Shown: one piece after another, positions 16,759 through 51,700 of the stretch
Layout of the letters: every line of letters starts with the position of its first letter
Position numbering within the stretch: the first letter of the stretch is position 1
Origin: a virus
Virus record (IMG/VR): IMGVR_UViG_3300033146_000857
Coordinates: 1-64,000 of that record
Length of the DNA stretch: 64,000 nt
Direction: 5' to 3' (one strand)
Notes under the pieces: generated by a model
Seen by the model: only the letters and a program-made list of their open reading frames with translations
What the model was told of the DNA's origin: nothing
Database searches by the model: none
Translations under genes and position numbers: made by a program

Positions 16759-16760
16759 CC

Positions 16761-18754: not shown

Positions 18755-18770
18755 AAGTATCTAGTTAAAG

Positions 18771-18784
18771 ACTTGAGATATAAT
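18771..18784 (+). promoter_or_regulatory. phage promoter, ACTTNNNATATAAT class
   Basis: ACTTGAGATATAAT lies 42 bases before the gene at 18827 and just behind the sigma gene. It would start the transcript for the polymerase block. Confidence 0.7.
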
Positions 18785-18826
18785 TATTTAACATTTGAGA
18801 GAATGAAATTAAACTAAGGATTAGAA

Positions 18827-19477: not shown

Positions 19478-19479
19478 TC

Positions 19480-30584: not shown

Positions 30585-30592
30585 CTAAGAAC

Positions 30593-30754: not shown

Positions 30755-31233
30755 ATGTTTCTCCCAGATTTGTCTATTCTAGAGTAGCTTCCAGCTGTCA
30801 TTAGTTGTAAAGACCCCTGAGAAAAATTCCACTCATCTTTAAAAGTAAAAAGTTTAAGTTCTTGGTTATATTCAAAAGGAAGGCTAACTTTCATTAGCTT
30901 ACCAGCTAAATTCCATTCGCTCTTAAGCACGTTGAAAAGTTCTTCGTAAGTACATTTTATGCCTATTAATATTTCCTTTGTCTCAAAAAAGATCTCTAAA
31001 TTCTTATTTATAACTAGAGAAGGCACTTTAGTCTCTTCAGGTGTTATATCTTGTAAAGTTAGACACCAGTCTGGATTAACTAGGACTAGAATTGGTCCAT
31101 TTTGAGTTATACTAAAGGTTCCTCCAAGAACCTTAATCTCAGTTCCTATAGAGTCATCTTCTAAAACTAAGTTTATTTCAATGCCCATAAGCTCTTGTCT
31201 ACTTGATCCTTGCACTTTATATTTTCTATTCAC
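30751..31233 (-). CDS. hypothetical fibre-region protein
   Basis: A 160-residue beta-rich protein with AAAGGAG upstream. No signal peptide. No family recognised. A possible late-type promoter (31258-31267) lies just ahead. Presumed fibre accessory or chaperone from its position. Confidence 0.6.
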   Translation of the reverse strand: MNRKYKVQGSSRQELMGIEINLVLEDDSIGTEIKVLGGTFSITQNGPILVLVNPDWCLTLQDITPEETKVPSLVINKNLEIFFETKEILIGIKCTYEELFNVLKSEWNLAGKLMKVSLPFEYNQELKLFTFKDEWNFSQGSLQLMTAGSYSRIDKSGRNI

Positions 31234-31257
31234 CTAAGCTCCTTTAAGATTAAACAC

Positions 31258-31267
31258 TATTTATATC
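31258..31267 (-). promoter_or_regulatory. possible late promoter, GATATAAATA
   Basis: On the minus strand GATATAAATA lies 25 bases before the 31233 start. TATAAATA equals the T4 late promoter core. A similar GATATAAAT occurs before the gene at 38627. No ACTT block is present. Confidence 0.45.
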
Positions 31268-31299
31268 TAACACCTATAGAAGCTTTTGGTTACCTACTG

Positions 31300-33978
31300 C
31301 TAAGCTGGATTACTATAGCTATAGTCTTTTTCCTGAGTTATGGGTATAAGAGTATCTCCTGAAGTTTGAATATCATAAATCTGTAATAGCTTATAGTTAT
31401 CAGCTATGACCACTAGGTCTATGCTTAAGGCTAAAATTGAGAAACCATAGCTCCCTGAGCTACTCTCTGTACTAGATAATAAATCACCGGTTAAGTGGTC
31501 AAAAGCTACTATTTTAGACCCCTCGGCTGCTCCTGTTATTACTATGTGTTTATAATCTTTAACCAAGATAGTTCCTCCATAAGGAGCTGAACATTTTGAT
31601 AATTTACAGTCACTACCATTAGTATTAAGCAATGTTAGTTGTCCAGACTTAGCTGTAGATTGTATATGTATTGAACAACGGTCATCAAAAGTTATCCCAC
31701 CAAGACTAAGACTAAAATTAGCCTTATCTAGGCACTTTGGAATAGTTAATGCCAACACTTCATCAGAATAACCTTTTGCACCAAGAGTGTCTAACTGGGC
31801 TTGTAACTCAGCTTCTGTACCGGCTGTTAGGCTATCTAGGGTCTTTGCGCCTTTTTCAAAAAGTTCAACTCTGATAGTCTCAGCGCTTAAAGGTGCTCCA
31901 CCGCCTATTTCTGACCAAGTAGCAAAATGGCTTATTAACGTTCCAGGAGCCCCTGGATAAGCTATGTCTGTTCCACCTGTATCTAGGCTACTATCTGGTT
32001 TACCGTAAGACCAGTTACCTGAGTGTAACGACATATTAGCATCTGTGATTGGATTGCCATCTGTTTTAACTACCTCTAGTCCGTCTATAAACATAGTAAA
32101 TCTGCCTTCACCACTAGAGTCTTCATATTTTAGTATTACATGGTAGGGCCTATTAATGCTTAGTTTTATATCAGAGTAAGCTTGGACCTTAAAGTCTGGC
32201 GTACCACTAGAATCAGCTATGTTACCTAAGAGAGTATTTCCAAAGCCAACAACCATATAAATGTTATTAATTCCCCCGCCCTCCTCATAGATACCAGAAG
32301 GAACCAAATGAACCCTGTCTAGTTGTATCCATCCGCCTACGTATCTTTTAGCATGTTTGTTTGTAATATTAGTATAATCTGAGTCACTCATGACTATCCT
32401 TGAGTTATTATCATTAACAGACCAACTGTGCGTAGAAGATAAAGCTATTGGAGTAGCTTTAAAACTAACTGATCCAGTTGTTGATTGACTATTGGCATTA
32501 GCCTCTCCCATTACATCTACATAGGTATTATTAAAAGTATGGTATATGTCTGGGTTAAGATTTTTGATTAACAGATCATAGGCTACGGCACCAATGGTTA
32601 CTTTAAAACTACTAGAACGATTGCCTAAGTCATCAGTAATGAATATATACCCAAAGCCATTGGCTATCCCAGTTAAGTCTACGTTAAATACTATGGCTAT
32701 GTCAGTCCAGTTAGTTGTTACTTGAGTAACTTTGGTAGCACTAGCATAGTTCATTGAATCAGCTAGTTCTATTTTGCCAGTTCCTTTTAGAGCTCCAAAA
32801 CCTGTGCCGTTTATTTTCTCATTAGTATCTCCTGTATCAAGTTGTGTGTCATTATCTAGACTAGATATTTTTACCGAAGATACAAAAAAGTTTATTATTT
32901 GAGCCCTACTCTGAACGGTATTTCCTGTTCTATGGGCCCACACATTGGCTTGAGTAAGTGAATTTAACTTTATATTTCCCCAACCTCTACCATAGGCTGT
33001 ACCATTACCACTAGAGTTTCTACTTAGTATTGGTAAAGACTGTCCTAGGTCTGATAGTCCAGCTGTAGATATGTCTAAGTCTGTGCTTATAGCTCCAGCA
33101 TCGTTTATTACATGTCTGGTCACAGATATGTCTGTGTGTTCTACTATATGAACAAGATGATTACCAGAGTCATCTCCAGAGGTTATGCTATCAACATGGT
33201 CTGAATGAAATTTAAACGTAACCGTGCTAAGATCTTTAGGATAGTATACTGCTGAAGTATCTGATATTGCATCATCTACACCGTTTGCATTGTTAGCTTT
33301 GAACTGATGAACTATAAAAGCTTTATCCCAAGTAGTCACAGACTTACTAGTTCCACCAAGACCATCTGCGGCTGTTCTTAGGTTAATATCTCCTGTGTCA
33401 CTGTTATCCTTAACTAGACCATGTCCTATGCTCCAGTTAGACCCAGTAAACTCCACTACGGAGACAAACACTTTGACAGTGTTATTAGAAGCGCTACCTC
33501 TTTTTACATTTAGAGTACCATTAGTCATCCAGGCCATAGCTGTTCCACTGTCAGCACCATCTACTGTTGAGTTACTATGCACACCAGTTATGAAAGGTAC
33601 ACAGTTGTCTATGTTAGATATGCCACTAACGGCTTGAGTCTGTGACTCAGAGGACAAATCTAGTTCATAGGTGCCTCTAACTATAAATTCATCTAGGCCA
33701 CTAGCCGTCCCTGTATATTCTAGTATGGCCCACGGTATAGTCTGACTCTTAGTTGCTAACTGCTTTTTGGCTACCACTGTTGTACTGTTTAGTATTTCAA
33801 TACTACCAGACATTTCAGCTACATCTTGGTTACCACTGTCACCAACTGGTCCCCCACCCATGTATCTATTATTAAGGTTTACTACAAAAGCTTTTGTAAG
33901 ATCAACGGTTGTTATGGTAGTATTGTCTGTTAAGCCTGTAAAAGTGCTCTCACCGTGCTGGATTTTTATAAATGACAC
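31300..33978 (-). CDS. modular adhesin with LamG-like domain
   Basis: An 892-residue virion protein. Residues about 1-370 hold tandem beta modules with recurring VKRG and KAFIVH elements; 370-460 resembles an IPT/TIG Ig fold (KINGTGFGALKGTGKIEL); 465-700 is a LamG/concanavalin-like domain (HTFNNTYVD, RYVGGWIQLDR, RPYHVILKYEDSSG, FTMFIDGLEVV); then a beta-rich end finishing YSYSNPA. The LamG and C-terminal modules are paralogous to those of the next upstream protein. Likely side fibre or receptor-binding adhesin; LamG folds often bind glycans. Confidence 0.75.
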   Translation of the reverse strand: MSFIKIQHGESTFTGLTDNTTITTVDLTKAFVVNLNNRYMGGGPVGDSGNQDVAEMSGSIEILNSTTVVAKKQLATKSQTIPWAILEYTGTASGLDEFIVRGTYELDLSSESQTQAVSGISNIDNCVPFITGVHSNSTVDGADSGTAMAWMTNGTLNVKRGSASNNTVKVFVSVVEFTGSNWSIGHGLVKDNSDTGDINLRTAADGLGGTSKSVTTWDKAFIVHQFKANNANGVDDAISDTSAVYYPKDLSTVTFKFHSDHVDSITSGDDSGNHLVHIVEHTDISVTRHVINDAGAISTDLDISTAGLSDLGQSLPILSRNSSGNGTAYGRGWGNIKLNSLTQANVWAHRTGNTVQSRAQIINFFVSSVKISSLDNDTQLDTGDTNEKINGTGFGALKGTGKIELADSMNYASATKVTQVTTNWTDIAIVFNVDLTGIANGFGYIFITDDLGNRSSSFKVTIGAVAYDLLIKNLNPDIYHTFNNTYVDVMGEANANSQSTTGSVSFKATPIALSSTHSWSVNDNNSRIVMSDSDYTNITNKHAKRYVGGWIQLDRVHLVPSGIYEEGGGINNIYMVVGFGNTLLGNIADSSGTPDFKVQAYSDIKLSINRPYHVILKYEDSSGEGRFTMFIDGLEVVKTDGNPITDANMSLHSGNWSYGKPDSSLDTGGTDIAYPGAPGTLISHFATWSEIGGGAPLSAETIRVELFEKGAKTLDSLTAGTEAELQAQLDTLGAKGYSDEVLALTIPKCLDKANFSLSLGGITFDDRCSIHIQSTAKSGQLTLLNTNGSDCKLSKCSAPYGGTILVKDYKHIVITGAAEGSKIVAFDHLTGDLLSSTESSSGSYGFSILALSIDLVVIADNYKLLQIYDIQTSGDTLIPITQEKDYSYSNPA

Positions 33979-33990
33979 TGTTTAGTCCTT

Positions 33991-36900
33991 TTATTCATTT
34001 TTATAATTCCTATCATAAAATTGTTCAACTTTTATAGAAGTGTTCTTGTCTATATCAAGGGCCTTAAAAAAAATATTCTTATACTTAACTGATACTACTT
34101 TTATGTCTACTATTTGACCTTCTATAGAAGTACTAAAGGTACCTGTAGTATTCTCTTGACCGGCTATTTCTATAGAGGTATTATGCTTGTAAACCCTAAT
34201 CTCTGAATTAGCCTGTAGATTAGTTAGTTCAAGGACGTAAGGATTTATAAGATTAATAAGTCCTCCTCCAAGGTTACTAATTTTTGTTGCATTTGAGCCA
34301 TTAAGATTAGTCCAGTTTAATGTTCCAGAGCCTAGCCATTGAATATGTATAGTGCTTAGAGTATCAAAAGTAACATTGTCGGCTACCAAGTCTAAGTTTG
34401 TTCCAGTTAAGCTTATACAGCAAGGAGCATTAGCTCTATGAGTACCAGCAATATCATCTAGGTCTGATTGAGAAGTGACAGATATGTCAGACAGTACTCC
34501 TTTTTCAAACAGTTTAAGTTTAATATCTTGGTCTGTTATTAAGCTATTGTGCCACATACACCAATTATTATAATACCCATTAACACTGGCTACTAAGAGT
34601 ATTTGTGTGCCCCCTAAGGCCACATTAGCACCGCTTTTGCCAAAGGCTGCTGGAGACCTGGCGGGTAGAGTGATTATATTAGGAACTACATTAGCACTCT
34701 CTAATTGCTTGACCCCGTCGATAAAAGCACTGAATTCATTATTACCTCCAGAGCCATCAAACTTTAGAGTCAAATGATATATTCTATCTTGAACTAAAGA
34801 CACATCTCCATAGATTTGTAAAGTTACCGCATCACAATCTAGCTCGAATAGAATGTTATTACCAAAGCCTAGTATAAAAGCTAATGAGTTTGTTACCCCA
34901 CCTTCCCCATAGACTCTACAAGGAGGCTGCTGTATCTTGCTAGTCTTAAACCAGCCAGCAATTACTCTTTGAGTTTGATCAGAATTTGACACTGTAGTTA
35001 CTTTACCTAAGTCTACAGTGTCTGCAGTAGAACTTGAAAAGATACTTTTAGTCACTCCTGAACATAAGGCTGGTCCTGTAGCTACACAACCAGTATTTGT
35101 GCCATGGGCTGTTCCATAGTCATCAGTATAAACTCCATCAAAAGTGTATAAATGATTTGGTCCTAGAGCCTGAATTGTTTGTTTGTAGTCTAGTCCTGAG
35201 TCATTGTCTGTTATGGTTCCTGTAGCTGTGACCCCTCCGATAATAAGCGTATAAGTCTCAGTTGGCTCTGGAATAGTATCGTCTACTACCTGTACAATCA
35301 CGCTGAAAGAACTAACTCCTGATGGGACACTAAGAGTATCTAGGCTAAGGGTTACTCCGTTAGAATAGCTTACCGTTCCAATATCCGAGCCGGTAGTTTC
35401 ATTGTGAGTCAGGCTCATTAGGTATGTTTCAGTAGCTTCTGTAGCATGACTAAGGGTTACTAGATGAACTAGGTTTAAGTTCTCAAGGTTACTATCATTA
35501 CTAACAGTTGAGACCGTAGGCTTAACATAAGCGGCTATTATACTTGTGGAATAGCCTGATCCACCAATTCTTCCAGCTGCTGTCTCTACATATAGATAGA
35601 CAGTTCCAAGAGACAATGTATCTTGAATACATCTTATGTTTATTTCTGTGTCATTCCAAGTATTAACTGTTTGTTCTACTAAGATCCCAGAACTGCTAGC
35701 TTCAGCATAAGTGTTTTTATTTCCAAGCCATATCTTACCTTGAGCAGCATCAAAAGTAGTACCAGTGACCATTAGGTTACTTTCGTTGTTAAAGATATCC
35801 CCATCAGCAAAGGCTGTTGTTATTGGTTCTATGTCATCGTTTATAACAGTTCCAGTACCGTAAGTACTATCAATGTTTAGTCTAAAAGTCTCATTAGTCT
35901 CTTGAATTACATCTTGATTAATTCCTAGGGTAATACTAAAAGTTGTAACTCCATCTGGGACGTTTAAGGTTCCTACTGGACTCTCAGTCACTCCGTTTGA
36001 AAAACTAAACCCAGCGTAGTCTTCCGAGTCAAAACCAGAACTAAAGGTATTCATTGAAATAGTGTACGTTTCTACCCCTTGGGTAGCATGAGTTAGACTT
36101 ACACCAAATACTAAGCCTGTTCCTTCATTTTCTGATGGACTACTTATTGAATCAATTGTAGGTTTTACGTAGGGAAGGACTAAATTGAATTGAATGGCCT
36201 CAGCATAGGCCGATCCATTGTGACTTTCCTTACTCCAAGTTATTTTAGTGTTTGACACCAAGTCATACCTAGTTGACCTACAAGATACGTCCCAAGCTTT
36301 ATTATACTCAGAACTATTATTATGTGCCATCATATGTCCAGCATGAGCTACTGTTCTGTTTAGATCTACGGCTGTACCAAGGTTTAAATCTCCTGATGAC
36401 CCAGTGTTTCTAACTACAGCTCCTCTTTGTACTAACAGAGAACTATCTGTTATAACCTGCCAGTAATATGTATGACTACCCGAGGTATAGCCTGTAGACA
36501 CTTCTAGGTTTGTACTAGTAGTTATCCTACCTGCGGAATTACCCTCGTCCTCATATTGATCTTCTATAGTGGTATCAGACAGGACTAAAAAAGACTTTGC
36601 TGTGTCTATAGAGCTAAGAGTTATATTAGCCGGTGAGGCATCACTAGGGGTTACTCCTCTTTGAACTGTCAAAGTATTATGACTTATCGTATACCAGTGT
36701 CCCGATTGAGCCACTCCAGAAGTGTTAACATTAAAAGCTATATTAGTGGTTGTACTTAACCTAGAACTTAGGTTTACTTGCCTTGGGGCTTTTAGGCTTC
36801 CATCTGTGGTCTTTACAAAATGCCAACAGAATGAATTAGCCAATGTTAAAGCACTTAAACTTACATTTTTTGATGTGTCTGAAGTAGTGAAATCAAAAGT

Positions 36901-37179
36901 TCCTTTTTGAACAAGGACATCCGCTGCAAGTTCAATAACATAAACAACAACAATAGCTGAAACAGCACTAGCTACTCTAGAAACTTTTACACTAGGACCA
37001 GCTAGTATCTCTACATCAAAGTTACCATCTTGAGACAATTGTGTGTCGCCACCAAGGCTAGCTGACGCTGTAAAAGGAACTATTTGAGCTAGGCTAGTAA
37101 AACCAGTTAAGCTAGCTGTTTTTGTTGTCTCTGAAGTGCTTAAGTTTAATATTACCTTTTCTAGCTTAACTATATTCAT
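33991..37179 (-). CDS. modular adhesin with Calx-beta and LamG-like domains
   Basis: A 1,062-residue virion protein. Tandem N-terminal beta modules with VQRG elements (about 1-330) are followed by a Calx-beta domain (about 335-455: NEGTGLVFGVSLTHA, TYTISMNTF, DVIQETNETFRL), an IPT/TIG-like unit, a second Calx-beta domain (about 560-660: DTIPEPTETYTL, TITDND), and a LamG-like domain (about 670-860). The C-terminal region is paralogous to that of the 892-residue protein. The acidic turns of Calx-beta domains usually bind Ca2+. Probable long adhesive fibre. Confidence 0.78.
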   Translation of the reverse strand: MNIVKLEKVILNLSTSETTKTASLTGFTSLAQIVPFTASASLGGDTQLSQDGNFDVEILAGPSVKVSRVASAVSAIVVVYVIELAADVLVQKGTFDFTTSDTSKNVSLSALTLANSFCWHFVKTTDGSLKAPRQVNLSSRLSTTTNIAFNVNTSGVAQSGHWYTISHNTLTVQRGVTPSDASPANITLSSIDTAKSFLVLSDTTIEDQYEDEGNSAGRITTSTNLEVSTGYTSGSHTYYWQVITDSSLLVQRGAVVRNTGSSGDLNLGTAVDLNRTVAHAGHMMAHNNSSEYNKAWDVSCRSTRYDLVSNTKITWSKESHNGSAYAEAIQFNLVLPYVKPTIDSISSPSENEGTGLVFGVSLTHATQGVETYTISMNTFSSGFDSEDYAGFSFSNGVTESPVGTLNVPDGVTTFSITLGINQDVIQETNETFRLNIDSTYGTGTVINDDIEPITTAFADGDIFNNESNLMVTGTTFDAAQGKIWLGNKNTYAEASSSGILVEQTVNTWNDTEINIRCIQDTLSLGTVYLYVETAAGRIGGSGYSTSIIAAYVKPTVSTVSNDSNLENLNLVHLVTLSHATEATETYLMSLTHNETTGSDIGTVSYSNGVTLSLDTLSVPSGVSSFSVIVQVVDDTIPEPTETYTLIIGGVTATGTITDNDSGLDYKQTIQALGPNHLYTFDGVYTDDYGTAHGTNTGCVATGPALCSGVTKSIFSSSTADTVDLGKVTTVSNSDQTQRVIAGWFKTSKIQQPPCRVYGEGGVTNSLAFILGFGNNILFELDCDAVTLQIYGDVSLVQDRIYHLTLKFDGSGGNNEFSAFIDGVKQLESANVVPNIITLPARSPAAFGKSGANVALGGTQILLVASVNGYYNNWCMWHNSLITDQDIKLKLFEKGVLSDISVTSQSDLDDIAGTHRANAPCCISLTGTNLDLVADNVTFDTLSTIHIQWLGSGTLNWTNLNGSNATKISNLGGGLINLINPYVLELTNLQANSEIRVYKHNTSIEIAGQENTTGTFSTSIEGQIVDIKVVSVKYKNIFFKALDIDKNTSIKVEQFYDRNYKNE

Positions 37180-37202
37180 TAATGGCTCCTGTATGCTTAA
37201 TA

Positions 37203-37222
37203 GAACTCTCCGTAGAGAATTC
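37203..37222 (-). other. stable hairpin with cUACGg tetraloop
   Basis: On the minus strand GAATTCTC, TACG, GAGAGTTC forms an 8-bp stem (one G-U) closed by C(UACG)G, an exceptionally stable RNA tetraloop. It directly follows the stop of the 464-residue gene and lacks a U-tract, so mRNA 3'-end protection or partial termination is more likely than full termination. Confidence 0.55.
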
Positions 37223-37232
37223 TATAAGATTA

Positions 37233-38627
37233 CTACAATGGGTTAGAGTAGTTTCTTTCTAAACTGGCAACCAAAGATACTGAGTTAGCATTTGATCTAC
37301 CAATAGCTGAAGTAGCTTTTACATACTGAGCTTTATCAAGCCCAATTGCTACAACTGTAATAGCAGCGTCTTGAGCTGCTGTTCTTCCACCTTGAACATT
37401 TCCATCATAGTCAAATGTAAAGGATATACTTCCAGAAGCGATAACTCCAGAGATATCAACACCGGCATTATCTTTAACAATTAGAGCATCAGAGTCACCA
37501 AAGTTATTTCCATTAGCATCTGTAAAGAACATTCTATAGACTGCTCCAGAGTCATCTACCAAGTTCTGATTGAAGTTTATAGTTCCCGCTGCCATGAATG
37601 GGAACGTTCTTTTAGTGTTAGTTGAGTCATAAAACTCGATTCTATTGATATCCGTACTTGAGAAGTCATCTATAAATACTCCTTGAGAAGTAACTAAAGT
37701 ATCACCTACGAACTTAAGTAAACTATCAGCTGTGTTACCTGAGACACTACCAGCACCTGCGTCTATATCAGAAGTCTGTCTTAGTGAATACTGTACATAT
37801 TCATAAATTTCCTCTGCAGTAGGCAAGCTACCATTGTCGGCTACATCAGCATCAATTATAACATCAAAGTCATAGCTTGAAGCTCCAATGGTTCTACTTT
37901 GAGCTGTACTGTAGTAAGTAATGTTCATGTCTGTATAAGGCAAGTTACCGGCTACAGCAACATCATTGTTTGTAATCTTAAGATCAACACTATTTTGAAG
38001 AGGAAAACGATACGCTTGGTAGTTGAACTTTGTAAGACCAATGTCTGAAAGCTGTGACTGAGCGTATTGTTTTTGATACTCACGAACGAATATTTTAAAA
38101 TAGTCACCAGTAGCTGAACTAGTTGCGTTGTCTATACCATGTCCACCACCATCTCCAAAATACTTGACGCACTGATTAACAACACCAGTTAATACTATGT
38201 TAGTAGAACTTCCATCAGCTACTTGTTGAAAGTAAACTTGATCACTACCCCCTAGAGCACCTAGAGTAATAACTCCTGCGTATTCTTCAGCTGATGAACC
38301 ATCACCATTCTTTATAGCATACCCACCATCTCTAAACAAATCTGATGTATTCTTACTAGCTGGTGCCCAGCCGTCAACAAATTCAAATTGCTCTGGTGTA
38401 ATTGCTACCATAGGGAAAGGAAATTTAATCAGATTTGCATCAGATTTCCATTCCTCTTTTAAGTATGAGTATACTGCTTGTAAACTTACACCATCTGTTG
38501 TTAATGCTCCATGTGCTGCTAAAGAAACACTTAAAGCTGTTGTGTCTATCCAGATACTCCCGTCTGTGCCTAACTGTCCTGAGGTAGAACTTCTAACTAG
38601 ACTATCTGGGTCGGTTATTTTTGACAT
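37233..38627 (-). CDS. probable abundant virion protein (tail/fibre region)
   Basis: A 464-residue protein with a strong ribosome binding site (AAAGGAG), its own candidate promoter and a stable downstream hairpin. Sequence style is structural: Ala/Ser/Gly/Asp-rich, LGTDGSIWIDTTA start, VYFQQVADGSSTN and a DADVADNGSLPTAEEIYEYVQYSLRQT section that resembles virion proteins of marine phages. It ends SLERNYSNPL, similar to the last residues of the 892-residue adhesin. The exact structural role is unknown. Confidence 0.65.
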   Translation of the reverse strand: MSKITDPDSLVRSSTSGQLGTDGSIWIDTTALSVSLAAHGALTTDGVSLQAVYSYLKEEWKSDANLIKFPFPMVAITPEQFEFVDGWAPASKNTSDLFRDGGYAIKNGDGSSAEEYAGVITLGALGGSDQVYFQQVADGSSTNIVLTGVVNQCVKYFGDGGGHGIDNATSSATGDYFKIFVREYQKQYAQSQLSDIGLTKFNYQAYRFPLQNSVDLKITNNDVAVAGNLPYTDMNITYYSTAQSRTIGASSYDFDVIIDADVADNGSLPTAEEIYEYVQYSLRQTSDIDAGAGSVSGNTADSLLKFVGDTLVTSQGVFIDDFSSTDINRIEFYDSTNTKRTFPFMAAGTINFNQNLVDDSGAVYRMFFTDANGNNFGDSDALIVKDNAGVDISGVIASGSISFTFDYDGNVQGGRTAAQDAAITVVAIGLDKAQYVKATSAIGRSNANSVSLVASLERNYSNPL

Positions 38628-38651
38628 CTTTTTCTCCTTTTTAGTTTCTAA

Positions 38652-38665
38652 TTTATATCCTGAAA
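38652..38665 (-). promoter_or_regulatory. possible promoter, GGATATAAAT
   Basis: On the minus strand TTTCAGGATATAAAT lies about 24 bases before the 38627 start, in an 84-base gap behind the outer-membrane protein gene. It matches the -10 half of the rightward motif with A for T at the last position and lacks ACTT. Confidence 0.45.
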
Positions 38666-38711
38666 CCTAACTTAGACTGTCTAGTTAAGCGGCTAGTTTG
38701 TCCTCCTAGTG

Positions 38712-39809
38712 TTAAAATGTGTAACTCAGCTTTATCAACACATGTTTATGGTCTGTTCTGTGTCCAAGAGGGCTTAAACCTGTACTTTCTAAATATTCTA
38801 GATGAACTCTTGATCTCTTATTGTATACGAAGTCTGAATAAATTTTATAAGATATCTTATCTGTCCCAAAAGAATTATAGTCATTCTCCCATAGATCTCC
38901 AAAGATAAAAGATGTATAGTCTTCGTAAGTTTTAAACTGTTCAACACCGATAGACACTTCCTGAAGCCATATCTCTGTGTAATATTTTAGGCCTATTAGA
39001 CTTGAGTAACCTGTGAGGTTATCTTTAAGAGCTGGTAAAGGTACTGTGTTATCTAGTAGTTTTCTATGGCTATACCCTAGTACTGTATAGCCAATAAAAC
39101 CTGAGTTTAAAGAGTCATCAAATGAGTAACCAAGTCCTATAAGTTCTGTTTTAAACAATTCTTTAGGTCCCCCAAAGTTAGGTATAGCTAATTTAACTTT
39201 AGTTAAAGCTTCTATGTAGTTTAGTTCAAAGAAATGCCTTCCATAGGAATATTCAAGCGCCGAGAATAGCCCTCCTGAACCGTCGAATTCATCAGATATC
39301 TTAGTCGTTCTGCCTAGAGTATCTTGGTCTACAAAGGCCTTTCCTATTTTAAACCTCAAATCTTCATAGGATATGACTATGAAGCCTCCTAGGCCTGTGG
39401 TGTCTATTAGCGTAAACAACATATTTCCTTGTATTTCGTCTGACTTTGAGTATTGCTTAAAGTTTCCTCCAGCTAGCTGTATTACTCCATAGACAAGATC
39501 AACACTAAGCTTACCTTTGGTTAAGACCCTTCCTTGTAAGTAAAGTCTGGTTAGCATTAGCTCACTTTTTTCACGACTGCCATGCATGGAATAAAGACCA
39601 GTAGCATAAGAAGAACTAGTAGTCCTAGCTTCGAAACTCCCCTTAAGACTGAGCCTACCAGCTTGTATGTCTGTATGATTTCTTAAACCTGCGGAGTAGA
39701 ACTGCTGCCCATTAAAGGCTCTATAGGCTGAGAATATCTCCGACTCTGAGGTTAATTCTGCGAATAGACTAGTATAGCCTAAGATTAAGCATATAAGTAT
39801 TTTATTCAT
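38712..39809 (-). CDS. phage-encoded outer-membrane beta-barrel protein
   Basis: A 365-residue protein. Signal peptide MNKILICLILGYTSLFA with cleavage before ELTSES. The mature part has alternating amphipathic strands rich in Tyr, Gly and Leu, separated by polar turns, and ends KHVLIKLSYTF with a C-terminal Phe and aromatic at the -3 position, the signal used by the BAM machinery. This is the pattern of bacterial porins and OMPs, not of virion proteins. It is co-transcribed with the histidine kinase and holin genes. A role in changing the infected cell surface (receptor masking, superinfection exclusion) or feeding the sensor is inferred. Confidence 0.75.
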   Translation of the reverse strand: MNKILICLILGYTSLFAELTSESEIFSAYRAFNGQQFYSAGLRNHTDIQAGRLSLKGSFEARTTSSSYATGLYSMHGSREKSELMLTRLYLQGRVLTKGKLSVDLVYGVIQLAGGNFKQYSKSDEIQGNMLFTLIDTTGLGGFIVISYEDLRFKIGKAFVDQDTLGRTTKISDEFDGSGGLFSALEYSYGRHFFELNYIEALTKVKLAIPNFGGPKELFKTELIGLGYSFDDSLNSGFIGYTVLGYSHRKLLDNTVPLPALKDNLTGYSSLIGLKYYTEIWLQEVSIGVEQFKTYEDYTSFIFGDLWENDYNSFGTDKISYKIYSDFVYNKRSRVHLEYLESTGLSPLGHRTDHKHVLIKLSYTF

Positions 39810-39815
39810 CTCTTT

Positions 39816-40064
39816 TTACCTCATTTTTCTGTTATTAGTATTTTTGGCTAAGTCTTTTAGCTCTTCTAGGTATAATTCTAGTTCTATACTATTAAGTTCT
39901 ATAGAATATGTCTGTCTTTTTGAAGGACTTGATAGTACCCTTGCCCAACCTAAGTAGGTTTTGCTACCTAGATCAAGCCCTTCTAGGGCTAGCCTTTCTT
40001 TAATAGCTGTTACTCCTGAAGCGTTACAGAAAGTTAACAGTATGATTATAAACAGCTTTTTCAA
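39816..40064 (-). CDS. small secreted protein in the envelope cassette
   Basis: An 82-residue protein. Residues 1-20 (MKKLFIIILLTFCNASGVTA) form a clear signal peptide; Cys13 is not in a proper lipobox. The mature part is helical (ERLALEGLDLG, then SIELELYLEELKDLAKN) and ends basic. It lies one base after the kinase gene and 6 bases before the OMP gene, so it probably works with one of them in the periplasm. A spanin-like or sensor-ligand role is possible but unsupported. Confidence 0.65.
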   Translation of the reverse strand: MKKLFIIILLTFCNASGVTAIKERLALEGLDLGSKTYLGWARVLSSPSKRQTYSIELNSIELELYLEELKDLAKNTNNRKMR

Positions 40065-40065
40065 C

Positions 40066-41355
40066 TTAACTCCTTTTTACAGGTATTATAATACTGACTA
40101 CAGTACCAGTAATACTAGTCTTGATTATATTTATGTCTCCGCCTATAGAAGTTACTAAATGTTTATTCAAATACATCCCATTACCTCTGGTTATCATAGA
40201 ACCACTTTCTTTTGTACTATAGTTTGGCTCAAATATTTTATCTACTATATCTTCTTTTATACCATTACCATTGTCCTCTAGGTTAAAGGTTAGGTACCTA
40301 CCTCGCAGGCTAACAAAGATTATCTTTATGTCCGTAGCACACGCTTCAAGAGAATTTTTCAAATGGTTAATTAAAATACTTCTTAAACCACTAGCCCTTA
40401 GATCCTTGCTGTCTAGGTCGAACACTTTGAGTCTTTCGTCTACTGAATATTTAAAAAGATTATTAGAAATAGCTACCATGCCAAAAGAGTCCGTTACTGA
40501 GTCATAGACATTTTTTGCTCCACTGTTTAGTCTAATCTGTTTAAACTTACGCATTTTGCCAAGAACTCCGAAGATTTGATCTATGGATAATTTTATAAAC
40601 TCAAAGTCTTTTTCTAAACCTACAAGTTTTTTATTAAGCGCTAGTCTGTCGGCTGATAAGGGTCTAAAACCATTCTCTTTGTCTTCTAAGATTAGGTATC
40701 TATTTATTAGTCTGTGTATTTTTTCTATTTTGTTTTCGACTACTTCTATGGGCGTGTTCATTTCATGATGAGCATGCTCTGTCATTAAAGATATAGACTT
40801 GTTGTTTAATAGAGCCTCAGACCCAGATAGTTGGACTAAAAGTTCCAATCTTTCTTTTTCAAAAGCACTTCTCATTACTCTTAGAAAGATAAAAAATACA
40901 AAGACTGAAACTATAGCATACATATAGAACAGGTTTATAAGATAGTTTGTAAAAGTTAGCCTAAAGAAAATATGCTTATCAGTTTTGTTAAAATCATCTA
41001 TTTGGATTAATATACTATTTTGGTTGTAGTAGAGTCCATCGGTTATTCTTAGAAGGTCTATTTTTCCTAGGTTAATTGGTCTAAGTACACTAGCTACATT
41101 TCTATACCTAGCTATCATCTTTCCACTCTTACGGTCTATGATTAACACTTCTTCACAGTCAACTAGTCTACATAGGTATTCTATGTCAACTATTTCAAAC
41201 TCATAGGAGTAATCCTGTAGTTGTTTTATTGCAAATAGACTATAAGAGTATATAGTATTACCTATGTTAAGAATAAAGGTTAGAAATAGTAATGTTGCTA
41301 CACTGAGCAAGGCTTTAAGGTGCTTTCTAAACAGCCATCTTAGGTAATCTTTCAT
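40066..41355 (-). CDS. transmembrane sensor histidine kinase
   Basis: A 429-residue kinase with full two-component architecture. TM1 is about 14-38, a roughly 100-residue periplasmic sensor follows (with Cys62 and Cys67), TM2 is about 138-160. The DHp H-box is HHEMNTPIE with phospho-acceptor His197. The HATPase domain has the N-box ILINHLKNSLEA (Asn330, Asn334), G1 DNGNG (361-365), F-box IFEPNYSTKE and G2 RGNGMYL. All catalytic motifs are intact. It is 4 bases downstream of the response regulator gene. Autophosphorylation in response to a periplasmic signal and transfer to that regulator is the family expectation; the signal is unknown. Confidence 0.9.
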   Translation of the reverse strand: MKDYLRWLFRKHLKALLSVATLLFLTFILNIGNTIYSYSLFAIKQLQDYSYEFEIVDIEYLCRLVDCEEVLIIDRKSGKMIARYRNVASVLRPINLGKIDLLRITDGLYYNQNSILIQIDDFNKTDKHIFFRLTFTNYLINLFYMYAIVSVFVFFIFLRVMRSAFEKERLELLVQLSGSEALLNNKSISLMTEHAHHEMNTPIEVVENKIEKIHRLINRYLILEDKENGFRPLSADRLALNKKLVGLEKDFEFIKLSIDQIFGVLGKMRKFKQIRLNSGAKNVYDSVTDSFGMVAISNNLFKYSVDERLKVFDLDSKDLRASGLRSILINHLKNSLEACATDIKIIFVSLRGRYLTFNLEDNGNGIKEDIVDKIFEPNYSTKESGSMITRGNGMYLNKHLVTSIGGDINIIKTSITGTVVSIIIPVKRS

Positions 41356-41359
41356 AAAT

Positions 41360-41938
41360 TTAGTCTTTGAACAGAGTTGCGTGTATGTAGGCTCTTCTAG
41401 GATCCATGGTTATTTCTGTTTTGTAAAGAACCTTGTCCTCTAGATTAAGCTTTGTCACCTGGTTATACTGGTCTATAATATTTTTTATAGGATTAATTGG
41501 ATCACTGATAAGATTTCCAGTATAAAAGAAATACTTAACTAGTGGGTTAATCTCATGTAGTACCTCAAAAACGTCCATGCCTGTAAGTCTGATGTTACCC
41601 TCTGGGGTTAGGATGCTTCCACCAAGTGTTAGATCTATTATAGCATAGTCTATGTTTAAATCAGCATGCTCTTTAACTAGGGTTAAAAATTCATACACTG
41701 CGTGTTCTCCAACGAAAGATAATATATTATACTTTGATTCATCCATGTCATAGTCTTCAAAAATAGTCTCTAGGTCATCTTCTAAAAAAGAGACTATGCC
41801 TGCATTATCGTCTATCAAGAGTATAGTTTTGTTATTAAAGTCAAAATCACTAGGTAACTCTCTAGTATATTCTAAGTCTGATGGCCTTAGGCTTTCATCG
41901 CCTAGTTTAAACACTAGGTCTAAAGGTGATAGTTTCAT
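41360..41938 (-). CDS. receiver-only response regulator
   Basis: A 192-residue protein with one REC domain (about 36-180): acidic pair TILLIDDN (Asp43, Asp44), phospho-acceptor IIDLTLGG (Asp102), switch residue YFFYTGN (Thr140) and Lys173 in VLYKTEI. All catalytic positions are conserved. A 35-residue N-terminal extension precedes it and no output domain follows, so it should act by protein-protein contact, as CheY does, rather than by binding DNA. ATG overlaps the upstream stop (ATGA). The nearest candidates for output are the coiled-coil membrane protein and holin in the same operon. Confidence 0.88.
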   Translation of the reverse strand: MKLSPLDLVFKLGDESLRPSDLEYTRELPSDFDFNNKTILLIDDNAGIVSFLEDDLETIFEDYDMDESKYNILSFVGEHAVYEFLTLVKEHADLNIDYAIIDLTLGGSILTPEGNIRLTGMDVFEVLHEINPLVKYFFYTGNLISDPINPIKNIIDQYNQVTKLNLEDKVLYKTEITMDPRRAYIHATLFKD

Positions 41939-42447
41939 TTTGGGACTCCTAAAAGAATATTCATGACTGTAAGTAGTGTTGGCCCAGCCAGTACTAACAC
42001 GATGCTCACACAGACTGTTATTACTGTGATAAACAATAGCTTAGAACTAGTGATTAAAGCATACACTTTACCAAAACTTGGTAAAGACTTTTTCTTTGGT
42101 TTTAAGAGCTGTTCAAGCATTTCTTTAGTAAGGCTAAGATCTGAGCTAGTGGTTTTTCTAGCTTCTAGATCTTTGATCAACTTGTCCATTAAAGCTCTTT
42201 TTGTTTCTATGATCTCTTTTAGAGTATCATACACTAAGTCTCTAAAATGGCTATTCTTAGTTTCTAGCTTGTCATTTATAGCCACAATAAACTGAATAAT
42301 TTCTTTCTGTTCAGAATGGTCACTCATAAGGGCCATTAATGCTTTATGAAAGGTAGCTTGATCAGACCTACCAAGTTTACTCATTTGAACGTCTAAAGTT
42401 TTTAGGGCACTAGATAGTCTAACATCTAGTTGTTGAAGTTCTTTCAT
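41935..42447 (-). CDS. coiled-coil membrane protein in the lysis/two-component cassette
   Basis: A 170-residue protein. Residues about 1-120 are helical and charged (coiled coil likely); a Lys-rich PKKKSLPSFG stretch leads into a hydrophobic segment about 132-166 (LLFITVITVCVSIVLVLAGPTLLTVMNILLGV) forming one or two membrane passes. It overlaps the holin gene and the regulator gene by 4 bases each, giving strict translational coupling. It could be an antiholin, a holin accessory or the effector contacted by the regulator; no family recognised. Confidence 0.65.
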   Translation of the reverse strand: MKELQQLDVRLSSALKTLDVQMSKLGRSDQATFHKALMALMSDHSEQKEIIQFIVAINDKLETKNSHFRDLVYDTLKEIIETKRALMDKLIKDLEARKTTSSDLSLTKEMLEQLLKPKKKSLPSFGKVYALITSSKLLFITVITVCVSIVLVLAGPTLLTVMNILLGVPK

Positions 42448-43061
42448 ATTTGTACCTTAGCACTTTTTTGATATCTTCTGCTCATTGCTTTGTCTGAAAA
42501 CCAGAATGAAATTACTGTAGAAGCTGCAAATAGTATCAGTTGTAAAGCTGGTTTAATCACGGCTAACATTAAGTTCTCTGTTCCAAAGTCGTCAAGTAGG
42601 TATTCCTCTAGGGCTGTATCTATAATTACCATTACATACCATACTATGCCTATTGTAAGCACAGGTCTTATAAGACCTCTTATAGCGTCCATAGCCAGTA
42701 AGTGTAAGTAGATTAAAGGTCTAAATACTAGCCCTATCTTAGTTTTATCACTTATCATCATCTTAACTACATCGTCTTTAAGGTACTTGCCAGTTAGTCT
42801 CTCTATAAGTCCTGCTCTATTAGTAGCTTCAGCTGTGTCTGCTGCTGCTTCCTCTAGGCTTATGGCTCCTTCAGTTATTACTTTATCAACTTCTATTTGA
42901 GCTTTTATTTCATTTAAGTTAGCTTCACTTTCGGCTTTGAACTTCTTTAGTTCAAACTCGTTCTGTTCTTTCTGTTGTTTATAGCCGAACCAAGTGGCAA
43001 AAATAGAAGTAACTGATCCTAAAAGGCCTCCACTTAGTATGTTAGTAAAAAAGTCCATCAC
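42444..43061 (-). CDS. 3TM holin (GTA_holin_3TM-like)
   Basis: A 205-residue protein with the outline of the 3TM phage/GTA holin family: an N-terminal hydrophobic helix (about 6-27, LSGGLLGSVTSIFATWFGYK), a charged coiled coil rich in Glu and Lys (28-75), then two hydrophobic regions (about 115-150 with AIRGLIRPVLTIGIVWYV, and 160-192). The RP-containing segment is typical. Holins permeabilise the inner membrane at a set time. It follows the DUF5675 gene by 6 bases. Confidence 0.75.
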   Translation of the reverse strand: MMDFFTNILSGGLLGSVTSIFATWFGYKQQKEQNEFELKKFKAESEANLNEIKAQIEVDKVITEGAISLEEAAADTAEATNRAGLIERLTGKYLKDDVVKMMISDKTKIGLVFRPLIYLHLLAMDAIRGLIRPVLTIGIVWYVMVIIDTALEEYLLDDFGTENLMLAVIKPALQLILFAASTVISFWFSDKAMSRRYQKSAKVQI

Positions 43062-43067
43062 ATCCCC

Positions 43068-43508
43068 TTATATGTTTGATATTATGAGCTTAAATGGCTC
43101 ATTTTTTGTTAGTTTATTCATCTCTCTTATTGCTTGTCTACTTCTAAACACGCATCTTTGCATTTTTCCGTGTTTGTTTTTAGCTCTTCCAATAGCTTTA
43201 CCTAGAGTTATACACCCCTGTAGGTGCGTCTGCCACCCAAGCTTAGCGTCTCCTGCAAAGTTAGCCCCGTGAATAAGTATAAAACTTCTTTTAGACACTT
43301 CTTGTATATGGTATAACTTTTTCTTAAAGTGCGGAGAATATCTTAATTTTACGTGGTACTCTCCAGTAGGAATACAACTTAGGTTAGGCTTATTGTCTCT
43401 ATCTGGTAGTTCTAATGAATTCCAAAACATACCATTGTTAGCCAGTATACCAAAAGTCCCCTCTTGAGTACTTTGTAGTCTATATAAGTATAACGTTTTC
43501 ATACACAC
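43068..43508 (-). CDS. DUF5675 family protein, probable lysis-related
   Basis: A 146-residue protein matching DUF5675: QSTQEGTFGIL, SLELPDRDNKPNLSCIPTGEY, SFILIHGANFAGD and QGCITLGKAIG. His, Cys and Gly positions around HGAN and GCI resemble the active-site layout of L,D-transpeptidase-like cysteine enzymes, though catalysis has not been shown for this family as far as I know. Phage members are often next to holins. It starts at 43508 or, more simply, at the ATG two codons later. Confidence 0.75.
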   Translation of the reverse strand: MCMKTLYLYRLQSTQEGTFGILANNGMFWNSLELPDRDNKPNLSCIPTGEYHVKLRYSPHFKKKLYHIQEVSKRSFILIHGANFAGDAKLGWQTHLQGCITLGKAIGRAKNKHGKMQRCVFRSRQAIREMNKLTKNEPFKLIISNI

Positions 43509-43542
43509 CCCAGGTTTAATTATTTGAACTTAAACAGTTATA

Positions 43543-43553
43543 AGTTTATATAT
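43543..43553 (-). promoter_or_regulatory. possible promoter for the lysis/envelope cassette
   Basis: The 62-base gap before the DUF5675 gene contains TATATAAACTT on the minus strand, about 35 bases from the start codon. It is the only gap of this size between the tail-tip genes and the cassette. Weak -10 match, no ACTT block. Confidence 0.35.
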
Positions 43554-43570
43554 GGCTTTATCCTCAAGGG

Positions 43571-44437
43571 TTATCTGGTAATAGTTAAACTCTTAGTAAA
43601 GACATTCCCATCTTCCTCTACTCTTATGGTAAAGTTGTTAATGCCCCTATTAAGTATTTTAGTATAAAGTATTTCTTTATTTGGGTCTAGAACTCTAAGA
43701 GGTATGTGTATCCATGGGCGAGTACAGGTAGTTCCTGATATATTTGGAACAATCATTCTAGAACCAGGAGTCGGATTATATGTAAAACTAAGAGTATCTT
43801 TATCAGTCTTAAGGTCTATTGTATCTCCTATAGAAGCTTTTAGCTCTATCACGTGGCTTAGAGATATACTTGTTGGAGAATTACCACTAAAATAGTCCAT
43901 ATTAGTTGGTTCTACTAAGTTTGGTAGTTCACTCACATTTAGGACTATTTCAGACCTATTGAATAGCCGTTGTTCCTCTAGAACATTCCAGAGACTAGTG
44001 GTGTTAACATTGTCTGGACGCTGTTTAAACAGTTTCTTCCATAAATAGTCTGAGTCAAAGTAGTACGGATTAAAGAAAAACCTTGACTTAAAGGTCTCTT
44101 CCCAGCTAAGTATTTTTTCTGGACTTAAGTATAAAAACTTATCATCAGACTGTCTTTTTATAAATACTTTATTGGTGGGTCCAAAGATCACCCTGTTTAG
44201 CTCTAGTGTGTAATCTTGCAGTGTTCCAGAGTAAATTAAGTCTAGTACTTCCTGGTCTGAGAGCTGTTTTTTATTTGTTGTAAATAGTATCTTATCAGTA
44301 TAAGATACATTTGGTGAAGCTATTTCTTGTAGGTTGCTATTAACATAGATGGCCACGTTTGTAGAATCACTATTTATGCAGGCTATATTATAAGGATACT
44401 TTATATCTTGGTTATACACATGTGAGTAAGTTAACAT
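43571..44437 (-). CDS. tail-tip/baseplate protein, unknown
   Basis: A 288-residue beta-rich protein, last gene of the tail-tip block, two bases behind the previous gene. N-terminal YSHVYNQDIKYPYN and a C-terminal Ig-like stretch (KEILYTKILNRGINNFTIRV). No family recognised. Virion role by position. Confidence 0.6.
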   Translation of the reverse strand: MLTYSHVYNQDIKYPYNIACINSDSTNVAIYVNSNLQEIASPNVSYTDKILFTTNKKQLSDQEVLDLIYSGTLQDYTLELNRVIFGPTNKVFIKRQSDDKFLYLSPEKILSWEETFKSRFFFNPYYFDSDYLWKKLFKQRPDNVNTTSLWNVLEEQRLFNRSEIVLNVSELPNLVEPTNMDYFSGNSPTSISLSHVIELKASIGDTIDLKTDKDTLSFTYNPTPGSRMIVPNISGTTCTRPWIHIPLRVLDPNKEILYTKILNRGINNFTIRVEEDGNVFTKSLTITR

Positions 44438-44438
44438 T

Positions 44439-45104
44439 CTAGTCTCCTTTAATTACCACTAAAGCTTCGTAGTTAATCCCAGAGTCTCTTAGGACTACTG
44501 AGGTTATTAGAAGTTTTAACTGTCTGTCTGAAATAGCTATTACTGTGCCTTTTGGTAAATATTCTGCCATTGTAAAGGTTGCCTTGCCCTTAAGGTTAGC
44601 AAATTTAAAATGTTGTAAGAAAAACTCTTTTACCTCAGCTATGTTGGCGGTTATCTTTGTGTCTATGGCCGTGTTAGCTGTATGACCAAAGGGCTTATAT
44701 ATAGACCTTTCTCCTTGGTAAGCAAAGTCTTGATAAGCAAGCAACATATCATCTGTAAATTTTAGTGGTTTGAATAAAAAAGTCTTCTTAAGATCAACTG
44801 TTGTTAGTCTTGTAAACTTATCAAAAGAATACTCAAAGTCTATACTTAGTTTACTTAGATTTTTAAGTTCATTAAACTCACCAAAGACTGGTTCTAATGC
44901 GTGTACTCCAAGGAAATATAGGAAAAACTGTTGTAATTTTTGAAACTTAAGATTCATTCCCCAAGGCTCTCCATTGTCATTGACTACTTCTAAGGCTGTA
45001 CATGACATAGAGTAACTTACCTCGTTTAAAATGTCTAATGAGTCAATAGACTCGAGTCTAGAAGTGAACTTAGCTCTCGTGTCTAGTAGTACTGAAATAT
45101 TCAT
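44439..45104 (-). CDS. tail-tip protein, unknown
   Basis: A 221-residue protein overlapping the upstream gene by 4 bases (ATGA). Mixed alpha/beta composition; no motif recognised. Virion assembly role inferred from its place between hub and lysis genes. Confidence 0.6.
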   Translation of the reverse strand: MNISVLLDTRAKFTSRLESIDSLDILNEVSYSMSCTALEVVNDNGEPWGMNLKFQKLQQFFLYFLGVHALEPVFGEFNELKNLSKLSIDFEYSFDKFTRLTTVDLKKTFLFKPLKFTDDMLLAYQDFAYQGERSIYKPFGHTANTAIDTKITANIAEVKEFFLQHFKFANLKGKATFTMAEYLPKGTVIAISDRQLKLLITSVVLRDSGINYEALVVIKGD

Positions 45105-48231: not shown

Positions 48232-48778
48232 TAGATGCTCCTATTTGTTGGTTAACTAAGACTGTTGGTTGAAAATATTCCTTGAACTTAGCACTAAGTT
48301 CAAAAAAGTTGTTAAACTTATGGTCTAATTTTAAAGTTCCATCCAGATAATGAACTCTGTGGGGTATTCTTAAACCGCTTGAAAGTATACTACTAGTAGT
48401 AATATCGAAAGTATTATTTTCATAAACTAGGTTATTTCCAAGTAAACTATGAGATAGCCTTCTATTTATGTCAAAGGTGTTTTCACCATAGAACTTTGCC
48501 TCATGAGGGTACTTATAAGATAGTCTATCACCAGTTTGGTCATAGACTAATTTCATACTAGGATGAATTTGAGTAACAAGATCAAAAGACTCTTCCTCAA
48601 CCAGTAGTTCTTCTAGGTAGTTCTTAAACTCATGATCGATCAGTCCAAAGTTTATCTCCCACTCTACATAGGGTACAGTAGTGTAATTGTCTACTTTTAC
48701 TCCGTCTACTAATAAAGGATTTTTACCCATATTTATCGTATATCTTAGATCTGAGTATAAAAATGTGTCTATCACCAT
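48206..48778 (-). CDS. distal tail (Dit-like) protein
   Basis: A 190-residue protein directly behind the tape measure (one-base overlap) and ahead of the hub, the place of GTA Orfg12/DUF2460 or lambda gpM. Sequence is beta-rich with FGLIDHEFKNYLEELL and a repeated (F)DI(N/T) pattern. Homology is not certain; the call rests on gene order. Confidence 0.5.
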   Translation of the reverse strand: MVIDTFLYSDLRYTINMGKNPLLVDGVKVDNYTTVPYVEWEINFGLIDHEFKNYLEELLVEEESFDLVTQIHPSMKLVYDQTGDRLSYKYPHEAKFYGENTFDINRRLSHSLLGNNLVYENNTFDITTSSILSSGLRIPHRVHYLDGTLKLDHKFNNFFELSAKFKEYFQPTVLVNQQIGASSASNFRDC

Positions 48779-51700
48779 TACAGGTACTCCTCGAAAACTT
48801 TTTTAACTCCATTTGCTATCATAGGAAGATTTCTTTCTATTGAAGCTAAAGAAGCATCTGGAGCCACTGGGATGGTAATGTTAAAATTATTACCACTGTC
48901 CTGACTCACTTGATTGTTACTACTGCTTATAGTGTTTATATTAACCTTTGGTATACTCATGGTTGATTTATTTAGACCATTAAAATAGTCCGCACCTAAA
49001 GCTCTAACAGTCTCTTTTCTTACTACGGCTTCTCCGTCCTCCAATAACGTAGGTCTTCTGTCTCCTCCGCCGTAGCCTGGTAAAACTCCTCCAGTAGACA
49101 TGCCGACACTACTACTATGTCCAGCTATGTTACTACTGGCTGCTATTGTTCTTGCAGCTCTTGCTGATGCTGCTCTTGCTCTGGCCAAATCTCTATTTAA
49201 GCTAGCCATAGCTTGACTCACGGATCTGGTCATGGTTCTGGCTGCCTCGTTAGCTCCCTTAGTAACGTCTCTCCCTACAGAGCTAAAACCTCGGTTTATT
49301 GAAAGAGTACTAGTTTTTAAACTTCTAGTTAGCCAGTCTGCTTGTTTAGTAAGTTCTGCCGCCATTGGCTTATAGAAATTTTTATTCTTAATGGCTTGAG
49401 TAGTCTTTTCTCCAGTTTTGTCTACTAGATCAACTACTGCTTTGGAAGTTTCATCACTAGTCTTAGATAGTCTTTTTACTAGGTTTTCTTTTATGTCTTT
49501 TAACTTTATGGTCCCTTTTTCAAGTCCTGCTATAAGTTGTTCAGCTGTTGTGGCCCCTAGGTCATTAGCCACTTTTTGTAGCATTTCGTTATTAAAAAGA
49601 TTTTGAAACACAGATTGCATTTTGTCATTGATATTCTCAGTATTAACGTCTACCTTTTGTAGGGTAGTTTGTATAGAGTCTTCTATTTTTTGTTGCAGAA
49701 TAACAGCATCAAAAGTAGCTACTTTCATAGAGTCTCTAAAAGACTCTTCATATTTATTGGCCATAGCTATGGCGTCAAAGGTAGCTAATGCTACTGCATC
49801 AATTTGACTTTGTTCTAAGGCCTCTTTAGACTGTTCAACGTCTATAGCTAGTGTATTAAGCATTTCAGTTAGTTGTCTGCCTAGGGCCGCACTTAGTCTA
49901 TCAGAGTTAATCTCCATGCCTTCTAGGTTAAAACTCAACGCCCTAGCTAAATCAGCTTTAGCATCTGCTGCATGAATTGCTATCTGTCTAAATGAGTCTC
50001 TAACAGAGTCTGCTATCTTAGTCATATTTTCTGAGAAAGAAATGCCTAGTTCTTCTAGTTGTCTAGCTGTATTTCTATTAATGTCTTCTATGCCCTGCTC
50101 AAACCCGCGAGCTATGTCCTCTAAACCAAAGCTTTTGCCAATGCCAAGTTCTTCAGTCTTTATGTCTTTGTTTATTTGAATATCTTGCATGGACTCAGCT
50201 AATTTTATACTTAAGTCTTCTAAGGCTCTTTGAAAGTCTAAAGACAATTTTGTCATATTTCTGTTAAATTGAGTAGCTATGTCAGAAAGATCTCTAGAGT
50301 ACTTTCTATGAGCATCCTGTAGATCATAGGCTAATTTTATTCCAGCGTCTCTTATACTAAGGTCATATTTTAACATGGCTGTTTGTAAGTCAAATAAAGC
50401 CGCGCCCATTTCTCCTTTAGCCCCTGTTACATCTCCAACTGTGGTAGTAGTTCTGTAAGCTCCATTAGCTGCTCCATAGAGCAAGTCTACTAGCTGTTCT
50501 ATAGACACTGAGTTTCCAGTTGCTGCAGATGCTGCTGTAGGTGCAGTCTCTGGGGCTGCTACCATTTCCTTCATATACTCTGGGTCTGTTAGAGCTCTAG
50601 TTGCATCAAAACTGAACCCAGCTTGAGCCTTGGTTACTCCCTGATCAACGATTACGTCTATAAGCTTGTCTGAGTTTTTATCCATATAGTCTAGATAAGT
50701 CTTATTAAAGATTTCACTGTTTACGTCTCCACCAGCCACTTTGTAAGCTTCTTTATAAGCTTCTTTTACCAGATCTTCTTTTGTTTTGTTTATATTTATC
50801 CACTGTTTAATCGCAGAAGTATTTTCACTAAGTTTAGCTTTATTAGCATCCATAGCTAGACTAATATTTGACATCTTATCAGCTAAGCCTAAGAGAGTAT
50901 CAGCATTTACAGTAAGCACAACTGGCTTTTGTAAGTTTCGGCTAAATAGCGTGTTAGTGTCGGCTATAGCTCTGTTTATAGCCGCAAGAGTTCTACCGTA
51001 GTTTCTGTTTAGGTCATTAACTTGCCTAGCATAGTTCTTTCTAGCATCATGTCTAGCTTGGTTAGTGCTAGTCTTTAAGTCTGCTACTGATCTTCTAAAG
51101 TTTATCCCAACTTGTTTAAGACTTCTAGCATAGTTTAATAGTGCACTAGCTTGTTGGTTTTGAACACTTCTATCTAAAGCTTGTATGTTTCTATTATAGT
51201 TTCTATTATTAGCTTCTACTTTTCTTTCTTTAGATATGCCTAAGTCTTCTACAGAATACTCTTTTGAACGACCAATTTTTTGCCCAGAAAAGCCTACATC
51301 TCTACGTAGGTTTCTCTCTGAAGAAACTCTATTGATGGTAACGTCTCTCCTGGATCTGTCTGTATTAAGATTAAGCTTATCTAGATTAAATCTGTACTGC
51401 CTTACTGCGTCTTCACGTTTGTTTCTAGCACTTATGTTAAGTTCTTGCTGTTGGAATGCAACCTGACGTATCTTAGCTTCCTTAATGTTAGCTGTTCTTA
51501 TGTCTAGATTTTTAATAGCTATCTGCTTAGTTAGTGTCTGTCTATTTCTGTAATCTTCGCTCATATTATTGGCTAGCCCTGACCTATCGGTCATGTTAAC
51601 TATGTCTGAGGTACTCATACTACTAACTGTCTTAAAGCTGTCTTTGGCTATGTTAGCATTTCTAAGAGTTCTATTAAGACCTTCTGCAAATCTATAGTTC

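Follow-up and report, generated by a model that had tools for sequence, protein, structure and literature searches.

A complete, highly divergent two-component pair predicted in the late operon of a virulent siphovirus, behind a conserved DUF5675/three-TM gene pair

Phages are known to sense through repressors, small peptides, periplasmic antiholins and borrowed host two-component proteins. Can a virulent phage also carry a kinase and a receiver of its own among its late genes, and what would these be used for? This question is raised by positions 38712–43508 of the window analysed here, which takes in the opening 64 kb of an IMG/VR virus record 96,471 bp long. An earlier note on this DNA described a complete two-component system inside a phage lysis/envelope operon, and proposed that it senses a periplasmic or surface state and tunes holin action or host envelope physiology. 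The structural part of this reading holds: judged from sequence, a complete pair is borne by the phage, lies within the late operon directly behind a conserved DUF5675/three-transmembrane (3-TM) gene pair, and is absent from relatives; the functional part is kept below as a tentative proposal.

The virus of the record is a long-tailed, virulent siphovirus of 96 kb. Its terminase, portal, tape-measure and major tail protein matched PHROG families in profile comparisons, its capsid-region genes are common to relatives, and its late genes run leftward and its replication genes rightward. The tape measure protein (48778–60219) has 3813 residues, compared to 3702–4181 in relatives, which implies a very long tail. 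In the early region, two ORFs of 123 and 137 codons (71653–72024 and 76769–77182 in contig positions) match a single ORF of relatives and are probably a gene duplication. The seven leftward ORFs of the locus have the coordinates previously given, and the gaps between them (+6, −4, −4, +4, +1 and +6 nt) confirm the reported spacing of −4 to +6. Two of these are 4-nt stop/start overlaps, joining (i) the 3-TM gene with the coiled-coil gene and (ii) the coiled-coil gene with the receiver gene. This late, tightly spaced operon is placed between tail and fibre genes. On its right lies a tail-region protein (43571..44437, minus strand) kept in all four syntenic relatives, with identities of 51% in G004, 33% in G002 and about 30% in G011 and G012; on its left lies a 464-aa fibre-region protein (37233..38627, minus strand) that matches positions 14158–15531 of G004.

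The 429-aa product (40066..41355, minus strand) reads as a genuine transmembrane histidine kinase, complete but very divergent. It matched HATPase_c in Pfam (PF02518; E-value 8.7e-13; 49.1 bits against a gathering cut-off of 26.4), and many NCBIfam kinase models match the catalytic domain, one of them spanning residues 173–427; no HisKA family was matched in Pfam. H197 lies in HHEMNTP (196–202), an HExNTP-type H-box that aligned with the HEINTP/HEINNP of rhizobial and Burkholderia kinases. The N box (N334, in LKNSLEA), G1 box (D361-x-G363-x-G365), F box (IFEPN, 374–378) and G2 box (G391-x-G393) were also found, and His197, N, G1 and G2 are thus all located as the earlier note had them. TM segments were predicted at 13–31 and 139–157, leaving a periplasmic part of about residues 32–138; a third prediction (408–426) falls within the HATPase domain and the count was taken as two. 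The translation places C62 and C67, five residues apart, in the predicted periplasmic segment, where they could form a disulfide. A T4 rIIA-like GHKL protein was ruled out by the TM helices and the H-box (rIIA match at E 5). The AlphaFold single-sequence models of the kinase and of the receiver were too poor and were set aside; the low-confidence kinase model has a helix and strands between the TM segments, and WalK and CzcS sensor domains were among its non-significant fold matches.

The gene next to the kinase (41360..41938, minus strand), whose start overlaps the stop of the preceding gene by 4 nt, encodes a 192-aa protein without match in Pfam, PDB (phmmer) or NCBIfam; PF00072 (Response_reg) gave none even at E 10. 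Its assignment rests on profile-profile similarity and residues, not on Pfam membership. When compared by hhalign to a profile of 17 bacterial receivers, the protein scored 64.5 and ranked first of about 135 phage proteins, the next scoring 4.6, and none of 300 shuffles reached this value (best, 16.7). In the alignment, D43/D44, D102, T140 and the GMD that follows the phospho-site fall on the matching receiver positions, and K173 was assigned by position only; the residues listed previously (Asp43/44, Asp102, Thr140, Lys173) are all present. The protein is extended by 37 residues at its N-terminus, carries additional residues between D102 and the helix that follows, and ends soon after K173. 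As no other domain was recognised with Pfam and NCBIfam, no DNA-binding output is apparent. Its single-sequence model (pLDDT 52) retrieved methyltransferases as top Foldseek matches, at an rmsd of about 8, a likeness that was rejected as the underlying model is too poor. Taken together, the profile match and the residues identify a highly divergent stand-alone receiver.

What precedes this pair in the operon? The first gene (43068..43508, minus strand, GTG start) encodes a 146-aa DUF5675 protein, as proposed before, matching PF18925 above its gathering score (6e-25; 87.8 bits against 26.7) and phrog_1501 (1.4e-21). H80, N83, G98 and C99 are invariant in all 69 aligned sequences, and four of four DUF5675 members gave a weak Tlde1_dom match (E 0.03–0.07); the sequence suggests a peptidoglycan enzyme of the L,D-transpeptidase-like cysteine type, and the protein is a candidate lysin. 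The second gene (42444..43061, minus strand) encodes a 205-aa membrane protein that had been called a 3TM holin. Its three TM segments are indeed predicted; the holin label is not established, as the family that it matches (phrog_6637, 4.5e-14) is annotated 'unknown function' and no holin family of Pfam or PHROG was matched. Gene pairing and TM count make it a candidate holin. Of the 66 IMG/VR DUF5675 loci having a downstream ORF, 35 have the 3-TM gene directly next, and the tail module closes with the same two genes in the vibriophages VHS1, 1.215.A and KarBoss. DUF5675 and 3-TM genes thus form a widespread adjacent pair of siphophages, which may represent an undescribed endolysin/holin pair; here the pair sits like a lysis cassette and is probably a cell-lysis gene pair. 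No spanin pair was recognised near these genes (37000–44600 of the window), and a probable one is present in a relative.

The third gene (41935..42447, minus strand) encodes a charged 170-aa protein that is probably coiled-coil with a single predicted C-terminal TM helix (137–155), in agreement with the coiled-coil membrane protein described earlier; it is weakly similar (34% over 55 aa, uncorrected) to a tail-anchored protein at the same place in G004. Behind the kinase, the 82-aa product (39816..40064, minus strand, TTG start) is preceded by a strong AAGGAG site (upstream sequence, AAAAAGGAGTTAAG). A signal sequence is predicted (hydrophobic N-terminus, 3–21), as expected for the secreted protein previously proposed, and the product is probably periplasmic; no meaningful family, and none of the RI type, was found in Pfam and PHROG. 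The last, 365-aa protein (38712..39809, minus strand) has a signal-like N-terminus and a terminal Phe (LIKLSYTF), and has no family or phage match in Pfam, PHROG, NCBIfam or the phage collections. Its barrel amphipathicity is weak, 51 of 500 shuffles equalling or exceeding it (not distinct at 5%). The outer-membrane barrel announced by the earlier note is thus not established, and such a barrel is weakly indicated.

We asked whether this arrangement is shared. With terminase identities of about 30%, the relatives include vibriophages of 80 kb and siphophages of Pseudomonas, Achromobacter and Caulobacter; uncultured contigs reach 48–77%, G004 being the closest syntenic relative (77%). The same interval in G004 encodes a holin-like protein of small size, a transglycosylase-like product, a probable spanin pair and a tail-anchored coiled-coil-like protein ahead of the fibre genes, and in G002 it encodes an M15 peptidase-like product among other small proteins; neither relative has a kinase or a two-component system there. 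The left-side fibre-region genes match across genomes, and the left-flank homologue in G004 marks the left edge of the insertion. None of the 21 records related through the terminase or to vibriophages, many being fragments, contained HATPase_c, which was found once in 50 DUF5675 records, in a gyrase B-like protein of the jumbo contig G061. No kinase was found in the 71 related or lysis-pair records, and the block of four genes encoding the receiver, the kinase, the 82-aa protein and the possible surface protein is absent from all relatives compared. By these comparisons the block is a lineage-specific insertion behind the lysis pair, in an interval that is a hot spot of non-orthologous exchange. 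The lysis block (14000–20000 in G004, 11464–19580 in G002, 28175–43508 in the window) is swapped for unrelated genes among otherwise syntenic relatives, the replacement lysis genes being a transglycosylase and a probable embedded spanin pair in G004 and an M15 peptidase in G002. No mobile-element-type repeats were recognised around the block, and defence-system models gave no meaningful match.

Because relatives lack the kinase, fibre genes match on the left, and the block is close to the phage late genes in GC and codon usage, assembly error, which the earlier note had raised as an alternative, is unlikely: the block is borne by the phage and absent from related phages. Searches of IMG/VR, isolated phages and plasmids retrieved no near relative of the kinase, the receiver or the surface protein, and nothing beyond generic kinase similarity, and an IMG/VR scan with the right-edge tail gene returned only two relatives, both already known. 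Scanning IMG/VR DNA with a degenerate H-box motif gave two matches, and neither of the ORFs bearing the motif was part of a kinase. Nor was the gene order seen in host chromosomes: the scan of genome contigs, the only one of its kind and one that detects near relatives only, gave weak catalytic-domain matches.

What might the block do? Control of lysis is the reading that we place first, while holding it tentatively. A block of receiver, sensor kinase, small secreted protein and surface protein would have been inserted behind the DUF5675/3-TM pair, and its genes would be made late, with the tail proteins. The kinase would read a periplasmic or envelope state, possibly via the co-encoded secreted protein, and phosphorylate the receiver on D102. 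Lacking a DNA-binding domain, the receiver would act by protein contact, and since 4-nt overlaps run from the receiver gene through the coiled-coil gene to the 3-TM gene, the lysis apparatus in the membrane offers the most economical target: the receiver would most likely bind either the tail-anchored coiled-coil protein with which it is co-translated or the 3-TM protein, and the contact would advance or delay lysis. The stricter proposal, in which lysis is timed or inhibited through a phosphorelay encoded by the phage, the phosphorylated receiver directly gating a membrane lysis protein without transcription, is more doubtful. A switch that acts late and after translation is favoured by the operon position, the periplasmic sensor and the lack of an output domain in the receiver. 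Three observations from sequence speak for lysis control: (i) relatives have recognisable lysis genes in the same slot (transglycosylase, spanin-like pair, M15 peptidase), (ii) the DUF5675/3-TM adjacency is conserved at the ends of tail operons, and (iii) the kinase motifs are complete and the active-site residues aligned in a receiver-only protein. Against it, the block contains a possible surface protein that would be superfluous for lysis timing, the holin and lysin assignments are themselves predictions, and the link between receiver and lysis proteins is putative; as no homologues of the block were found, gene order and residue conservation across relatives lend no support.

The lack of a DNA-binding output and the late position fit control of superinfection or of the envelope equally well. 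The kinase, the 82-aa protein and the surface protein would alter or monitor the surface of the infected cell, for example to block superinfection, with lysis unaffected and the place in the late operon a mere sharing. In its favour, the four genes form an unbroken run downstream of the coiled-coil gene, the entire run is missing in relatives, export signals are carried by two of its products (82 and 365 aa), and phage kinases beside outer-membrane export genes are known from the curli T8SS of pelagiphages (PMC9599517). However, the barrel assignment of the 365-aa protein is weak and the receiver gene shares its 4-nt overlap with the coiled-coil gene rather than with the exported genes, and we consider this explanation somewhat less likely. 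Rewiring of host networks is less probable again: the receiver, which has no output domain, would serve as a phosphate sink or donor, or the kinase would phosphorylate a host regulator, altering late host stress responses. Phage use of host circuits is documented for CtrA-controlled phages (PMC9437464), R8W (PMC8228385) and phiCDHM1 (PMC6127314); here, however, kinase and receiver genes are adjacent, as is usual for cognate pairs, each protein is remote from every host sequence found, and the late position leaves little time for transcriptional effects. It is improbable that the block is a recently acquired host two-component operon carried as a passenger with no role in infection, as its presence in this phage only among relatives might suggest, given the intact catalytic motifs, the tight operon overlaps, the GC and codon usage near those of late genes and the very large divergence from bacterial homologues. 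If lysis control is correct, a kinase and receiver of the phage's own in a lysis block would provide a direct signalling route from the envelope to lysis, and whether virulent phages measure the cell before lysing it would become testable.

How unusual is such a pair? The bacterial kinase core matched 91 of 50,697 phage records, and among the matches listed most were unannotated fragments or seemingly host-contaminated; generic receiver searches of the phage collection likewise returned mostly unannotated or host-contaminated records. Microcystis phage MaAM05 is a doubtful carrier, its neighbouring genes looking chromosomal: its record (MW495066.1), where a SasA-like kinase accompanies aspS, coaE, rnhC and sigE, may be a piece of a bacterial chromosome. 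A second apparent phage kinase belongs to a mycobacterial prophage. In the literature searched, no described phage carries a kinase and a receiver inside its lysis block, in line with the earlier statement that no phage system of this layout was known, and no paper contained the exact phrases phage-encoded histidine kinase or two-component.

The published phage signalling genes that we found are single partners. They resemble the present pair as signalling proteins encoded by phages, and none is described inside a lysis block: phiCDHM1 has AgrC without AgrA and thus lacks the receiver partner (PMC6127314), the pelagiphage text names only kinases, which precede the curli T8SS cluster, i.e., outer-membrane export genes (PMC9599517), and that of R8W only a PhoB-like regulator (PMC8228385), so that these two are set apart by their descriptions. 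In CtrA-controlled phages, it is host two-component circuits that are exploited (PMC9437464). Lysis inhibition in T4, with holin T and the periplasmic antiholin RI, is a precedent for periplasmic sensing in lysis (PMC8385771); it shares a small exported protein near membrane lysis genes and, with the proposed reading, a phage that senses state in the periplasm, but it works by direct binding without kinase or receiver, and the 82-aa protein has no sequence relation in Pfam or PHROG to known families, RI included. VHS1-type vibriophages and IMG/VR siphophage contigs likewise end their tail module with adjacent DUF5675/3-TM genes, whereas no receiver, kinase, 82-aa or surface protein follows the pair. 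Bacterial systems of an NtrB-type (HExN-P) kinase and a single-domain receiver share the H-box, N, G1, F and G2 boxes, two TM helices with a periplasmic segment, the receiver active-site residues and the adjacency of the genes; in contrast, the phage pair lies in a late operon and its receiver, with a 37-aa N-terminal extension and extra residues after D102, has no family-level similarity. In Gram-positive bacteria, LytSR controls the holin-like lrgAB. Two-component control of holin-like proteins is thus common to LytSR and the proposed reading, but LytSR is chromosomal and transcriptional, and its receiver carries a DNA-binding domain.
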